NCBI RefSeq assembly: GCF_000686845.1
Contig: NZ_JMLS01000035.1
Span: 1 to 49,294, forward strand
Length of the DNA stretch: 49,294 bases
Direction: 5' to 3'
From: Paenibacillus sp. UNC451MF
Lineage (GTDB): Bacteria > Bacillota > Bacilli > Paenibacillales > NBRC-103111
Below are positions 1,714 to 44,194 of the stretch, one piece after another; position 1 is the first letter of the stretch, and each line of letters opens with the position of its first letter. The notes below the pieces were generated by a model. The model saw only the letters and a program-made list of their open reading frames with translations, ran no database searches and was not told where the DNA came from. The position numbers and the translations under genes were made by a program.

Positions 1714-1911
<198 letters not shown>

Positions 1912-9031: not shown

Positions 9032-9140
9032 CCTCCTAAGAGTTTTCGGTAGAAAACTCACATCGTAAGCATTTGCTTAGCGTACGGAGTACGCTAACTT
9101 CGTAAGAGCTTAATGCGTTCGGAGAACGCAGCTTCATTAA
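9032..9140 (-). repeat. Shine-Dalgarno-linked hairpin modules (three units) in the rplX leader
   Basis: Three consecutive sense-strand hairpins fill the rplN-rplX gap. First is GCGTTC-TCC-GAACGC (6 bp, about 9115-9130). Next, CTTACGAAGT (9097-9106) leads into TTAGCGTAC-TCC-GTACGCTAA (9 bp, 9077-9097). Last, CTTACGATGT leads into GAGTTTTC-TACC-GAAAACTC (8 bp) and then CTTAGGAGG, the rplX ribosome-binding site (9032-9069). The arms differ between units but each is self-complementary. No poly-U follows any stem. Confidence 0.8.
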
Positions 9141-23339: not shown

Positions 23340-23405
23340 CCTCCTTAAAGTTTTGTGGAACAAAACTGCATTGTAAGCATAAGCCTCTATAAGGCTATAT
23401 GATCA
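23340..23405 (-). repeat. Shine-Dalgarno-linked hairpin module in the rpoC leader
   Basis: The unit at 23340-23377 reads CTTACAATGC, the stem AGTTTTGT-TCC-ACAAAACT (8 bp), then TTTAAGGAGG, which is the rpoC Shine-Dalgarno. Just upstream, AGCCT-TATAG-AGGCT looks like a second, more diverged unit. Length and layout match the modules before rplX and disA. Confidence 0.7.
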
Positions 23406-27299: not shown

Positions 27300-27905
27300 T
27301 TATTTCACAGCTTTAATAATTCGATAGCCTTTATCCTTGTCGACTTCTATTACTTTCGAGAATAAACTCTCTAGTTTAGCAAAAGCCGAAGGCGCGCCTT
27401 GTTTTTTCTGAATCACGATCCATAGAGCACCATTAGGTTTCAGAACTTCATAGGCTTGTTCAAAAATATGATGTACCGTCTCTTTGCCGGCACGAATCGG
27501 AGGATTGGTCAGGACAACATCGAACTTGCGATCAAGCACTTCAGCCAGCTTATCGCTCTGCATAATTTCCACGTTGGAAATATGGTTCCGCTGTGCGTTG
27601 GAACGAGCTAGCTCTACTGCTCTTTCATTAATATCTACAAGAGTTACCTTACCCTGAGGCACACATAGCGCGGCAGCAAGCCCGATAGGTCCATAACCAC
27701 AGCCTACGTCAAGCACCTGAGCATCTTCAGGCAGCTGCATTGCAGCGATCAACACCTTAGACCCATAATCGACCCCCTTCTTGGAAAAGACTCCGGCATC
27801 GGTAACAAAGGTAAATTTACGGCCTCGCAGCGTTTCTTCAACTGTATGTACGTCATGTGCCGCAGTCGGTTTTTGCGAATAGTAATGCTCGCTTATTTCC
27901 CTCAC
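27300..27905 (-). CDS. ybxB: Class I SAM-dependent methyltransferase, RsmC/YbxB-like
   Basis: Methyltransferase of the family that modifies guanine in 16S rRNA (RsmC) and its Gram-positive relative YbxB. It has the SAM-binding motif VLDVGCGYGPIGLAAA near residue 65 and the catalytic NPPIRAG near 131, typical of N-methyltransferases on nucleic acid. The only conventional in-frame start, GTG at 27905, overlaps the Shine-Dalgarno AGGAGGTG. Alignment with Bacillus MTEHYYSEKP puts the true start at 27896, where the codon is ATA (ISEHYYSQKP). It lies between rplL and rpoB as in Bacillus. Confidence 0.85.
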   Translation of the reverse strand: MREISEHYYSQKPTAAHDVHTVEETLRGRKFTFVTDAGVFSKKGVDYGSKVLIAAMQLPEDAQVLDVGCGYGPIGLAAALCVPQGKVTLVDINERAVELARSNAQRNHISNVEIMQSDKLAEVLDRKFDVVLTNPPIRAGKETVHHIFEQAYEVLKPNGALWIVIQKKQGAPSAFAKLESLFSKVIEVDKDKGYRIIKAVK

Positions 27906-27943
27906 CTCCTAAGGTTTTCTTAGAAGAAAACCCGCATTATAAG
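27905..27943 (-). repeat. Shine-Dalgarno-linked hairpin module before the rsmC-like gene
   Basis: One diverged unit: CTTATAATGC, stem GGTTTTCTT-CT-AAGAAAACC, then CTTAGGAGG, which is the Shine-Dalgarno of the methyltransferase gene. It follows the rplL terminator closely. Confidence 0.65.
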
Positions 27944-28950: not shown

Positions 28951-29026
28951 CCTCCTAAAAGTTTTCGTGAGAAAACGGTCTCCGTAATCATAAAGTAAGT
29001 TTTCATAAAGAAAACGGACTCGTCAG
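28951..29026 (-). repeat. Two 38-nt tandem hairpin modules in the rplJ leader
   Basis: The proximal unit (28951-28988) is ATTACGGAGACC, GTTTTC-TCAC-GAAAAC, then TTTTAGGAGG, the rplJ Shine-Dalgarno. The distal unit (28989-29026) is CTGACGAGTCC, GTTTTC-TTTAT-GAAAAC, then TTACTTTATG. Both are exactly 38 nt and abut each other. They are related to the modules before rplX and disA but the CTTACGAAG box is degenerate. Confidence 0.75.
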
Positions 29027-29111
29027 TTACCGTATTAACTTATCTCGTAAACATTCCGTTAGTGTCCCGTTCAATACGTTCTATCGGTCATGTCTGCGAA
29101 GGCCTCCGCAA

Positions 29112-29148
29112 TAAAACAAAAATGCCTTCGCAGACACTGCGAAGGCAT
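29112..29148 (-). terminator. Attenuator terminator of the L10 leader
   Basis: The sense strand forms a perfect 11-bp stem ATGCCTTCGCA / TGCGAAGGCAT with loop GTGTC, followed by TTTTTGTTTTATT. It lies between the rplJ promoter and rplJ, so it must be conditionally bypassed for rplJL expression. Confidence 0.88.
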
Positions 29149-29247
29149 GATGATTCACGTTATCTTTGTTCTGAAGCAAAGAAACCCGATTCTATATCAT
29201 AACACCTCGGCAGGAAATTAAGCTGAATCAGCACCTGCTGTCTACGG
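29112..29247 (-). ncRNA. L10 leader (ribosomal protein L10-L12 autoregulatory RNA)
   Basis: About 30 nt after the -10 box the sense RNA contains CCGTAGACAGCAGGTGCTG, then AGCTTAATTTCCTGCC and GAGGTG. The pairing GCAGG/CCTGC and the order of elements match the Firmicutes L10 leader, which binds L10 (with L12) through a kink-turn-like site. It ends with a terminator hairpin at 29112-29148, so regulation by transcription attenuation is likely, as proposed for Bacillus. The assignment is by recalled consensus, not by a covariance search. Confidence 0.8.
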
Positions 29248-29275
29248 TAAGTCATATTCAATTATCAACTTAGAT

Positions 29276-38798: not shown

Positions 38799-39499
38799 GA
38801 TTTGTTCTCTCCCCTGACATTTTGTATTATCCACGTCGCCCATGGTAAATCTTCGGGTGTTGTTATTTTAATATTATAATAATCCGCTTCCACAACTTGA
38901 ACCGATGTGCCGATCCTCTCCACCAGCATGGCATCATCCGTCCCTACAAACTGATCCTTGTCCGCCTGCTCATAGGCCCGCAGCAACAATGAAAAACGAA
39001 AAGCTTGTGGGGTCTGAATCGCCCACAAGCTGCGCCGGTCCGGGGTGGATTGGATCGTTCCCGCCGGGTCGACAACTTTTATTGTATCTTTAACAGGGAC
39101 TGCCAACACGGCTGCATCGGTCTCCATCGCTTTATGCCAGCACGCCATAATGTGCTCTTCTGCAGCAAAGGGACGTACACCATCGTGGACCATGACCCAT
39201 TCCACGCTGCCTTCTAGCGCCTGCAGTCCTCGATATACCGAATCCTGCCGCTCTTTGCCGCCGACTATTAGATGACGTACCTTCGTAAGACCGTACTGCT
39301 CCACGTAACCGCTGCAGCGTTCCACGTCATTAGCCCCAGTGACCAACACGATCGTATCGACCTGGGCTATTCGTTGAAACAAAGCCAATGTATGTACAAG
39401 AATCGGTTTACCGTCCAACTCCAGATACTGCTTGCTTTCCTCGGTCCGCATACGCGAGCCTTTGCCTGCGGCTACGATTACTACCCCTAGCTGATTCAT
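38795..39499 (-). CDS. ispD: 2-C-methyl-D-erythritol 4-phosphate cytidylyltransferase
   Basis: MEP-pathway nucleotidyltransferase acting just before IspF's ATP-dependent partner Isp[13 protein letters not shown] near residue 6 is the nucleotide loop, and [17 protein letters not shown] follows near 22. [10 protein letters not shown] near 104 and [10 protein letters not shown] are family typical. I chose the ATG at 39499 (234 residues), with AGGTG upstream; a GTG three codons earlier is less well placed. ispD and ispF overlap and are coupled. Confidence 0.95.
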
Positions 39500-41607: not shown

Positions 41608-42687
41608 TTAAATATGTCTGTCAATGAGTACTTGATCTTGAATTCGTTTTAAGCCCTCTTTAATCGCGCGTGCCCTGACTTCCCCGATACCGTCTACTTC
41701 ATCCAATTCGTCGATTGTTGCCATCATCAAATGCGGAAGCTGTCCGAACTTCTCCACTAAATTGTGTATAATGACGGATGGAAGTCTCGGAATTTTGTTC
41801 AGTACGCGATAACCTCTCGGTGATACCGTATCCTCGGCACTGACACTTGCATGCGGGTATCCCAAAATGCGTGCGATATGAGGGTGATCCAGCATTTCAT
41901 CCGTTGCGACACGTCTTAGACTATGATTAACATCCTTAATTTTATCTTCATTCAGTTCTCTCACATAATCCTTAACTAAAAGCAGAGCCTCATGCTCCGT
42001 CGCACCGACAAGCTCTTCCAACTGCATACTAATAAGACGACCTTCGGTTCCAAGTTCATTAATGTAACGTTTAATTTCGGCCTTGATGCGGAGCACCATC
42101 TCGATACGCTGTACCACATTAGTTACGTCATGGAGGGTAACCAGTTCCTCAAACTCGGAGGCACCCAGATTGGTCAGAGCTTGATCCAGAACCGACTTAT
42201 ACTTTTCCAAAGTCTGAATCGCCTGGTTCGCCTTGGTAAGGATAACTCCCATATCTTTCAGAGAGTATCGCAAATTTCCTTGATATAACGTAATGACGTT
42301 TCTTCTTTGGGAGATGGACACCACGAGCTTGGAGGTTTGTTTGGCCACCCTCTCAGCGGTTCGGTGCCTGATTCCCGTTTCAGAAGATGTAATGGATGAA
42401 TTCGGTATGAGCTGTGTATTGGCGTACAATATCCGTTTCAAGTCTTCACTCAGGATGATTGCACCGTCCATTTTCGCCAGCTCGTACAAATAGTTCGGTG
42501 AGAAGTCGCAGTTAATGGAAAAGCCTCCGTCCACAATTTCCATCACTTCCGGACTATAACCCACGACGATCAGTGCGCCCGTCTTTGCCCGCAGCACGTT
42601 CTCGAGTCCATCCCGAAAAGCGGTCCCTGGCGCAACCATCTGCAGAAGCTGGCTCATGACATCTCTTTTGGTTTCTTCCTTGCTCAT
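41608..42687 (-). CDS. disA: Diadenylate cyclase DisA, DNA integrity scanning protein
   Basis: Makes cyclic di-AMP and pauses on branched DNA. The N-terminal DAC domain has the catalytic DGA (in [18 protein letters not shown] near residue 73) and RHRTAE near 107. A helical spine follows, and the C-terminal helix-hairpin-helix ([16 protein letters not shown], near 335) binds DNA. The 359 residues are standard. The leader between radA and disA carries two tandem hairpin modules, the second of which ends in the disA Shine-Dalgarno. Confidence 0.97.
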
Positions 42688-42693
42688 GTTGTC

Positions 42694-42774
42694 CCTCCTA
42701 AGGGTTTTCCGTAGGAAAACCTACTTCGTAAGCCTGAACTTTGGACTTTCCGTAGAAAAGTCTGCCTTCGTAAG
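42694..42774 (-). repeat. Two tandem Shine-Dalgarno-linked hairpin modules in the disA leader
   Basis: The distal unit begins CTTACGAAG (42774-42766) with stem GACTTTTC-TAC-GGAAAGTC. The proximal unit (42732-42694) is CTTACGAAG, the perfect 8-bp stem GGTTTTCC-TAC-GGAAAACC, then CTTAGGAGG, the disA ribosome-binding site. The two boxes are 42 nt apart. This is the clearest copy of the family in the window. Confidence 0.85.
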
Positions 42775-42826
42775 GCATTACGAGTTCTATTGTTGATATT
42801 ATTAACTGTATTAAAAAATTTTCCTT

Positions 42827-44194
42827 TTATCCTAAGGCAACCTTTAACGCCTCGGCTACTGTATTCACTCCTATTACTTCTATACCGGAAGGAGGCGTCC
42901 AGCCCTTCAAGCTCTTTTCCGGCACGATAACTCGGCGAAATCCAAGCTTCTCTGCTTCCTTGACTCGTTGATCTACCCTCGATACGCCTCTCACCTCACC
43001 GGTTAAGCCAACTTCGCCAAACACGACATCAAACGGCTGTGTAGGCTGCTCCCTTAAGCTTGAGGCAATACTTACCGCAATGGCAAGGTCAACCGCCGGT
43101 TCATCGAGCTTCACCCCACCAGCAACATTGACATAAGCATCCTGGTTTTGCAAAAACATTCCCATCCGCTTTTCAAGCACGGCTATAATTAGCGCAAGGC
43201 GATTGTGATCAATCCCTGTAGCCATTCTGCGCGGAGAAGGAAAGTTCGTCGATGAGACCAATGCCTGCAGCTCAACCAGGACAGGCCGCGTCCCTTCCAT
43301 ACTCGCTACCACCGTAGAACCGGACACCCCTAAAGGCCTCTCCGACAAGAACAGCTCTGAAGGATTATTAACCTCAACCAAGCCGCTTTCCTGCATTTCA
43401 AAAATTCCGATTTCATTCGTGGAACCAAAGCGGTTTTTCACAGCTCTCAGCAGCCGATAAGAGTGGTGGCGCTCCCCTTCAAAATAAAGCACGCAATCGA
43501 CCATATGCTCAAGCATCCTTGGGCCCGCAATAGCGCCTTCTTTAGTTACATGACCGACCAGAACCGTTGCGATGCCTTTAATTTTAGCAATGCGCATAAA
43601 ATGTCCAGTACATTCTCTAACTTGAGAAACACTGCCCGGAGCCGAACCGATAGCCGGATGATATACCGTCTGTATGGAATCAATGACGACAAAATCAGGC
43701 TGTACTTCTTCGATAGCCGCCTCTATTAATTCGAGGTTCGTTTCACACAATACGAACAATTGTTCGGATGTAGCATTCAGCCGATCCGCCCGCAGCTTTG
43801 TCTGTCTAACCGATTCTTCTCCGGATACATACAGTACTTTTTGATTGCTGAGGGTCAAATCATGCGAGGTCTGCAGCAGCAGCGTCGATTTACCTATGCC
43901 GGGATCTCCACCAACAAGCAGCAGTGATCCTGGCACCACTCCGCCGCCGAGAACTCGATTTAATTCTTTATTTCGTGTAACGATGCGCTGCTCTTCACTG
44001 CTTTTAATATTTATGATCGAAACAGGCTTTTCTTTCGACTTTAGTATAGAAGAGTTCATTCCTTGAGTCTTTGTGACGGTTTCCACTTCTTCTACAAATG
44101 TATTCCATGCCTGGCACCCGGGACATTTCCCCATCCACTTCGGCGATTCATAGCCGCACTCTTGGCAGCAGAACTTCGTTTTTTGCTTTGCCAT
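42827..44194 (-). CDS. radA: DNA repair protein RadA
   Basis: RecA-like ATPase that extends heteroduplex DNA in recombination. The N-terminal zinc finger is [19 protein letters not shown] (residues 9-27), Walker A is [13 protein letters not shown] near 96, the family motif [11 protein letters not shown] is near 255, and the C-terminal part is Lon-protease-like. Length 455 is standard. It precedes disA, and in Bacillus RadA is known to affect DisA activity. A terminator lies upstream, so radA probably has its own promoter, which I could not identify clearly. Confidence 0.96.

Follow-up and report, generated by a model that had tools for sequence, protein, structure and literature searches.

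A dispersed box-and-hairpin leader unit that runs into the Shine-Dalgarno sequence of unrelated genes in Paenibacillus and related bacteria

A repeat family consisting of CTTACGAAG, about 2 nt, a hairpin of 6-10 bp and YTNAGGAGG precedes genes of unrelated function in the 7.49 Mb genome of Paenibacillus sp. UNC451MF (the host), the last segment being the Shine-Dalgarno (SD) sequence of the gene behind it. The element is a dispersed, cis-acting RNA leader module of the Paenibacillus-like host family and of some other families of the order: its host copies lie in sense orientation and are anchored at SD sequences, its stem covaries, its box is conserved, its arrays have grown in tandem, and lineages differ in its presence or absence. 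It combines the structure of a cis-leader with the behaviour of a dispersed repeat family and is apparently undescribed. No Rfam 15 family reached its gathering threshold over the element (the window matches were 5S rRNA and the L10 leader only, with two sub-threshold matches over 42600-42900), and no published description was recognised in a literature search, although this is weak evidence of absence because subscription journals lay mostly outside the reach of the search. A transcriptome paper on Paenibacillus riograndensis gives the ribosome-binding motif as aGGaGg, and its accessible text makes no mention of such an element (PMC5670726). The preliminary description of this DNA had likewise known of no named element of this form.

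Copies in the window and anatomy of the unit

The window, which is the whole 49,294-nt stretch of DNA analysed here, contains copies in six leaders, all on the minus strand together with their genes (Table 1). These are the six leaders for which a common layout of box, hairpin and SD, with tandem copies before disA, had been put forward, and the layout is present in every one; the boxes of rpoC, rplJ and the methyltransferase gene are weaker (two, two and three mismatches, respectively), and the rplJ stem is 6 bp long. At the methyltransferase gene, whose RsmC and PrmC matches were sub-threshold, the covariance model reported no match to the leader copy. The called GTG start of this ORF overlaps its own SD (AGGAGGTG, window ~27910-27895) and an in-frame ATA lies 8 nt past the SD, so the start may be non-canonical. 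The rplJ copy sits between the Rfam L10 leader (29109-29265) and rplJ, placing two leader systems in series, and a further exact CTTACGAAG is found outside the six leaders at 39281-39289 (minus strand). Allowing up to one mismatch, the window has 27 occurrences of CTTACGAAG where 10.7 would be expected, and 27 was reached in 0 of 100 shuffles. Individually, the leaders show no significant gain in folding over shuffled sequence (z from +0.4 to -2.1 for six stretches), and the support for the element is recurrence and covariation, not folding stability.

Table 1. Leader units in the 49,294-nt window and the disA gene.
Feature	Position	Strand	Description
disA leader, whole	42774..42694	-	two box-and-hairpin units, the second running into CTTAGGAGG, then the disA ATG
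disA leader, terminal unit	42694..42732	-	box CTTACGAAG (42732-42724), TA, hairpin GGTTTTCC-TAC-GGAAAACC, then CTTAGGAGG (SD); 63.9 bits
disA leader, upstream unit	42733..42774	-	box CTTACGAAG (42766-42774), hairpin GACTTTTC-TAC-GGAAAGTC (including one G.U), linker
disA gene	41608..42687	-	NCBIfam NF010009, 522.8 bits (cut-off 201)
rpmJ leader, terminal unit	1836..1873	-	exact-pattern and covariance-model matches
rpmJ leader, upstream unit	1874..1910	-	box TTTACGAAG (1902-1910)
rplX leader, terminal unit	9032..9069	-	box CTTACGATG; model match; same terminal unit letter for letter in congener G011
rplX leader, upstream unit	9070..9106	-	box CTTACGAAG (9098-9106), hairpin TTAGCGTAC-TCC-GTACGCTAA
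rpoC leader	23340..23377	-	degenerate box CTTACAATG, hairpin AGTTTTGT-TCC-ACAAAACT, then TTAAGGAGG; 21.9 bits, E 0.85
rplJ leader	28951..28988	-	degenerate box ATTACGGAG, hairpin GTTTTC-TCAC-GAAAAC, SD; 24.2 bits, E 0.27
methyltransferase (RsmC/PrmC-like) leader	27905..27943 (approx.)	-	box CTTATAATG, hairpin GGTTTTCT-TCTA-AGAAAACC, then TTAGGAGG; read by eye

Written as RNA, the unit reads AGCNNAYG-CUUACGAWG, about 2 nt, an AU-rich hairpin of 6-10 bp with a G-C cluster near its 3-5 nt loop, and YUNAGGAGG, which is the SD of the gene; the box is single-stranded in the unit. The anatomy was taken from 194 terminal and 168 other units of the host, G011, G020 (the sole other genus compared) and the disA and rpmJ/sister-family loci, which gave the consensus AG-C/T-NN-A-Y-G-CTTWCGAWG 5' of the hairpin. 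Since the scan tolerated at most two box mismatches and loops of 3-6 nt only, the conservation of the box is partly forced; in the 194 terminal units T2 was invariant, G6 and T3 were each kept in 192 and A7 in 186, and W4 and W8 were variable. The spacer between box and hairpin measured 2 nt in 152 of these units (1 nt in 28, 3 nt in 14), the stem 8 bp in 113 (9 bp in 39, 7 bp in 33) and the loop 3-5 nt in 193. In most copies, as judged by eye, 0-1 nt separates the hairpin from YTNAGGAGG; internal array units continue with CTCAG, CTTAG or similar and some 6 further nt, often with AYG at the end, before the next box begins. The G-C pair near the loop is freely reversible (CG 40, GC 32, UA 12 and AU 1 in 86 lettered rows). 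In agreement with the earlier view that these are not intrinsic terminators, the stem of terminal units leads into YTNAGGAGG-like sequence, not into a U-tract.

Two further features were rejected. An AAG-CTT extension of the stem, which is part of the covariance model R1, is poorly kept, its outermost pair being unpaired in 28 of 79 host rows and 21 of 36 rpmJ rows. A leader peptide starting from an ATG 5' of the box was not adopted either: 204 of 362 units have ATG at this place, the others ACG, AAG, GTG, TTG or other triplets, and the few frames viewed by eye end at differing stops.

Copies and covariation in the host genome

An exact box-to-SD pattern occurred 16 times in the host genome and its reversed control not at all. 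The covariance model R1, built from 17 copies, gave at least 95 matches at E<=1, those near E 1 being uncertain, and at least 70 at E<=0.01, bearing out the claim that further copies exist; the host count is a lower bound, since 150 of 4277 first-look candidates were scored. Searching with box and hairpin but no SD returned 53 rows, which reduce to 50 distinct places once the three doubled ones are merged (reversed-pattern control 0). All 50 copies are in sense orientation toward an SD and none is antisense, which extends to the genome what had been noted for the six leaders; 33 reach an SD within 8 nt, and 17 have the next box within 60 nt and are thus inner units of tandem arrays. In a 400 kb sample of contig C1 (4146 N; 328 called genes), 293 genes had an SD, which in nine was abutted by a hairpin of at least 7 bp. 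Three clear elements and one possible element among the 293 indicate that about 1-1.5% of genes carry one, and the window is richer than this. The same sample holds five exact boxes, two in elements and three within coding sequence.

The genes behind the element share no pathway, as the preliminary description had already argued, in contrast to what is expected of a single-pathway riboswitch. Of 26 submitted, 21 reached the NCBIfam cut-off: disA, L36, L24, L10, rpoC, kdpA, aspartate kinase, argR, accC, panD, MTA/SAH nucleosidase, guaA, ruvB, NAD kinase, atpC, cysW, argH, APS kinase, Ku, tatA and fur. Matches to scpA and sucB fell below it, and three genes had no name. The nearest upstream ORF was co-directional in 59 of 75 element rows against 67.6% of 327 genes, a mild excess between two slightly different measures. 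In the argH leaders of both the host (L050) and G011 (L212), CTTAGAAAGGGG stands in place of CTTAGGAGG after the element. Two weak model matches (L123 13992-14024 and L172 7951-7983) have box and SD only, with a shorter middle, and may be antisense of a conserved rpsL stretch.

The arms of the hairpin vary between copies yet remain complementary, as first noted in the window. The 95 host matches, which include some places more than once through overlapping loci, gave 87 distinct rows; the hairpin helix was 96.2% paired in these, and 99 cells across the modelled structure as a whole had changes on both sides, compared with 26.7+-3.9 in shuffled and at most 5 in slid alignments. The rpmJ leaders (45 matches, four of them array-internal; 38 distinct rows) gave a hairpin 96.7% paired and 48 both-side changes compared with 12.5 shuffled and at most 13 slid. 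Since the host and rpmJ alignments were both fitted to the model, these tests lean toward structure. Comparison of the host with G011 in 51 aligned leaders yielded 28 changed stem pairs, of which 18 were compensatory, one was G.U and nine were one-sided; with G011 as the reference (52 leaders), the counts were 18, two and nine, respectively. This count was used instead of a ratio of 43:0 from the first host-G011 comparison, which was true by construction. The 51 leaders remain from 59 pairs after six rows were dropped (four array-internal and two with misread stems) and two more were lost for want of a perfect 5 bp stem in the host leader. A few host stems are indeed broken or missing (C1:452558 and C12:166000, the two pairs lost, and C7:170794, a truncated stem and one of the two misread rows), and these count against strict stem conservation. 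A perfect stem of at least 5 bp near the SD was nevertheless found in both leaders of 52 of the 59 rows, two of them misread. The stem thus covaries beyond the controls, as in a structured cis-regulatory RNA, and complementarity is largely kept in orthologues, although quasi-palindrome correction or the swapping of array units could yield some compensatory changes without selection.

Distribution and turnover of the element

With 64 candidates scored per genome, a match at E<=0.001 was found in 18 of the 22 genera of the host family and in 95 of its 104 genomes, counting the host. A class-wide sample, with 16 candidates scored per genome, had matches at E<=1e-4 in 27 of 398 genomes, namely the host, 25 of one sister family and one of a third family. 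The module was seen, in these family and class surveys, only in one order plus one outlier. Copy number ranges from 0 to 92, congeners having up to 92 model matches, and the sister family carries fewer copies than the host family.

The one site surveyed across the order was rpmJ, where the element recurs in several families. Among 73 loci tried (the 30 best-scoring, 40 selected for spread from 145 genomes and three known element matches), 67 leaders were read, or 68 with the host's own. A terminal unit at E<=0.05 was present in 41 of the 68 (host family 25 of 36, sister family 15 of 22, elsewhere one of 10), and in 37 of 64 when four leaders previously known to bear the element are set aside. 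The two sister-family g35 copies and the f2 copy that were read also lie at rpmJ; rpmJ as the founder locus is only a guess, because the survey was narrower at every other site. Six of the nine rpmJ leaders read in genus g32 (L353, L358, L361, L363, L364 and L365) lack the last hairpin but retain the upstream unit and the box beside the SD; these losses count against a strict need for the last hairpin. Of 20 distant copies read, 18 precede a readable start. The sister-family copies L301 (G413) and L308 (G440) have a box and a perfect hairpin followed by TTTTAGGCGG and TTTTAGGTGG, respectively, in similar surroundings with no GGAGG and no gene start within 22 nt, and perhaps represent a copy away from a start site. 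Four leaders of two sister-family genera (L306, L309, L310 and L312) have a long loop of about 25-35 nt, differing in sequence, between conserved AGTTTTG and CAAAACT arms. At rpoB, no convincing model match was found in 80 loci, two of them from Paenibacillus. A phage origin was rejected, as none of 11 exact-pattern stretches in viral contigs had a hairpin by eye and they were attributed to chance.

A downstream gene could be read for 75 host rows; 59 of these had an element-bearing partner in G011, or 55 of 71 after removal of four array-internal rows, partners being sought among the loci fetched for element matches. The 16 genes without a partner include rplJ, whose partner at 99% identity lies too near the end of its locus to be read, and one skipped match of 43%; the rest may lack the element or were unfetched. 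Orthologous leaders do differ in its presence: among the disA leaders of 13 congeners, five have the element, one has a variant and seven have none. Three of those without it (L100, L101 and L102, from G004, G003 and G012) carry a GC-rich repeat, GTGTCC..GGGCGGAGCC..GGGAGGG.., leading into the SD. G020 had 60 matches at E<=0.01; 30 loci yielded 28 readable proteins, of which four match host element genes at 45-73% identity (two more, at 27%, were regarded as paralogues); rpmJ is a further locus. Judged by these comparisons, G020 carries the element on mostly different genes, and loci come and go; arrays grow locally. Loci differ in how many upstream units they have, and the units of any one locus look alike, which argues for local growth, and together with the 55 of 71 paired genes this likeness points to vertical inheritance with local tandem duplication. 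Of the two terms in the preliminary description, "mobile or expanding", the second thus agrees with how arrays grow; the first fits the difference in loci between genera but not the many host genes paired in G011 or the likeness of units within a locus.

Possible functions of the element

Evolution has kept the hairpin paired, and the element therefore probably controls the trimming, retention or translation of messages. As to how, we tentatively favour, as possible rather than probable, a portable mRNA 5'-processing and stabilising leader, by analogy with known cleavage sites; an effect on mRNA stability had been one of the two roles suggested in the preliminary description. An endonuclease, most likely RNase Y, would cut within the box, where the GA of CUUAC-GA-AG suits the published weak GA preference of this enzyme, and would leave a shorter message starting a few nt 5' of the hairpin. 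The hairpin and an SD-bound ribosome would protect the new 5' end from 5'-3' decay by RNase J, and tandem units would provide several cutting and capping sites. A single cistron could in this way have its abundance set independently of its promoter and of its neighbours in the operon; this would explain the lack of a pathway link and why both operon-internal and first genes are carriers.

The B. subtilis targets of RNase Y share a weak GA motif that lies in unstructured, AU-rich RNA and is often followed by structured RNA. In cggR, the hairpin confers stability on the product of cleavage, and this effect depends on RNase J1 (PMC11780869). The hairpins of model RNase Y sites are AU-rich and carry G-C pairs close to the loop, the orientation of the pair being of little importance (PMC11321564), similar to the reversible G-C pair of the element. 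As far as the accessible text of these articles goes, the anatomy of the element (a near-invariant GA box, an AU-rich covarying hairpin about 2 nt downstream and an immediate SD) resembles, at the level of sequence, RNase Y sites with stabilising hairpins (PMC11780869, PMC11321564, PMC10311766). The sites in cggR-gapA and glnRA likewise combine a single-stranded AU-rich GA site with an AU-rich hairpin that has G-C near its loop and lies just 3' of the site, ahead of the next cistron; no common box is described for them in the accessible text, whereas the box of the element recurs in dozens of genes and its hairpin meets the SD (PMC11780869, PMC11321564).

Several observations count against RNase Y. 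The distance from G6|A7 to the hairpin is about 5 nt, compared with 1-3 nt at model sites (PMC11321564), the downstream hairpin is dispensable for cleavage in B. subtilis (PMC11780869), and most Firmicutes have RNase Y (PMC11321564), whereas the module was found only in one order and one outlier. The lost g32 hairpins, the broken host stems, and L301 and L308 with neither start nor GGAGG also speak against the processing leader, and operon-internal processing is not the whole story, since an upstream co-directional ORF is only mildly enriched. The element would also be similar to Stab-SD of cry3A-type leaders, in which an SD-like sequence near the processed 5' end protects the message; it differs in that we know of no hairpin-box unit and no dispersed family for Stab-SD.

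The RNase Y motif is weak, and the conserved box of 9-12 nt far exceeds it in strictness; a sequence-specific protein therefore fits the box as well or better. The nearest rival of the processing leader is thus a factor, either an RNA-binding regulator or one associated with the ribosome, that would recognise AYGCUUACGAWG as a single-stranded box; the hairpin would fix the distance from box to SD, and the bound factor would raise or lower initiation across a global, pathway-free regulon. Such a factor would fit a box much more conserved than the arms, the short spacer (2 nt in 152 of 194), an SD right after the stem and boxes in tandem. A comparable idea has been put forward for the TAACTGA repeats of marine Beggiatoaceae, which appear to be the closest analogue: sets of direct repeats lie just 5' of the start codons of unrelated genes, including those of ribosomal proteins, and a post-transcriptional role was proposed, but the repeats are heptamers and canonical ribosome-binding sites are rare, unlike a hairpin unit ending in a strong SD (PMC4679880). 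We consider a box-binding factor somewhat doubtful, since about 90 copies in one genome against one or two in related genomes would be odd for a global regulon unless its gene set turned over fast. Ribosomal protein leaders such as the Rfam L10 leader (RF00557) are also structured leaders ahead of ribosomal protein genes; they are gene-specific and autoregulatory, whereas the element is common to dozens of unrelated genes.

It is unlikely that the element is a selfish or neutral REP-like repeat, one that spreads preferentially to SD-like GGAGG or has persisted only where it stands at an SD, with the hairpin and box serving its own copying and the compensatory changes arising from quasi-palindrome correction or unit exchange. 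A repeat of this kind would account for the small overlap between G020 and the host (four of 28 proteins, plus the rpmJ locus), the patchiness of disA leaders in 13 congeners, copy numbers from 0 to 92 with local tandem duplication, and the two distant copies with no gene behind them. It accounts poorly for rpmJ model matches with covarying stems in 25 of 36, 15 of 22 and one of one leaders of three families, for the 55 of 71 host genes with an element-bearing G011 partner and for the absence of antisense copies among 50 in the host. REP and BIME sequences are also dispersed short palindromes in high copy (>100 per genome), some in composite arrays, but REPs alternate in orientation within BIMEs (PMC2817692). 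The 50 host copies are instead all sense, in direct tandem where repeated, and either anchored at an SD or array-internal, not placed regardless of start sites.

Two readings centre on the SD itself. The preliminary description proposed that the hairpin keeps the SD single-stranded, and a hairpin ending 0-1 nt from YTNAGGAGG in most copies (by eye) would suit a translation insulator that absorbs upstream sequence and leaves the SD free. However, predicted SD accessibility averaged 0.36 in 70 element leaders compared with 0.46 in 175 SD genes of C1, which still include the few element genes (p 0.004). With the 30 nt ahead of the SD shuffled, the mean was 0.37, and the native value exceeded the shuffled one in 35 of 70. 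Since accessibility is lower and insensitive to shuffling, the hairpins, as modelled in silico, leave the SD no freer than it would be without them, and an insulator is quite improbable. Pairing of the box with the SD (CUUW with WAGG), which would make the unit a masking switch or a thermometer, is the least probable reading and was not adopted: predicted SD accessibility is somewhat low, and the fourth base of the box and the one just 5' of AGGAG tend toward A/T and T/A partners (85:32 vs 7:8), but Fisher p is 0.07 over related sequences and the outermost pair of the AAG-CTT extension is often unpaired (28 of 79 and 21 of 36 rows).

A broader reading, plausible to us yet short of probable, is that an RNA element kept at rpmJ in several families has spread in one lineage to as many as about 70-90 copies, which land in sense at an SD and whose AYGCUUACGAWG box is read by a dedicated nuclease or RNA-binding factor. 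The element would then be a plug-in layer of post-transcriptional control, added to or removed from genes, with the number of tandem units as its dial. If this is true, these bacteria would possess a natural, lineage-wide and apparently undescribed modular leader that evolution has moved between genes, with consequences for start-site calling, operon modelling and RNA family annotation in their genomes, and it raises the question of whether a portable cut-and-cap unit ahead of a ribosome-binding site can set the mRNA level of one cistron.
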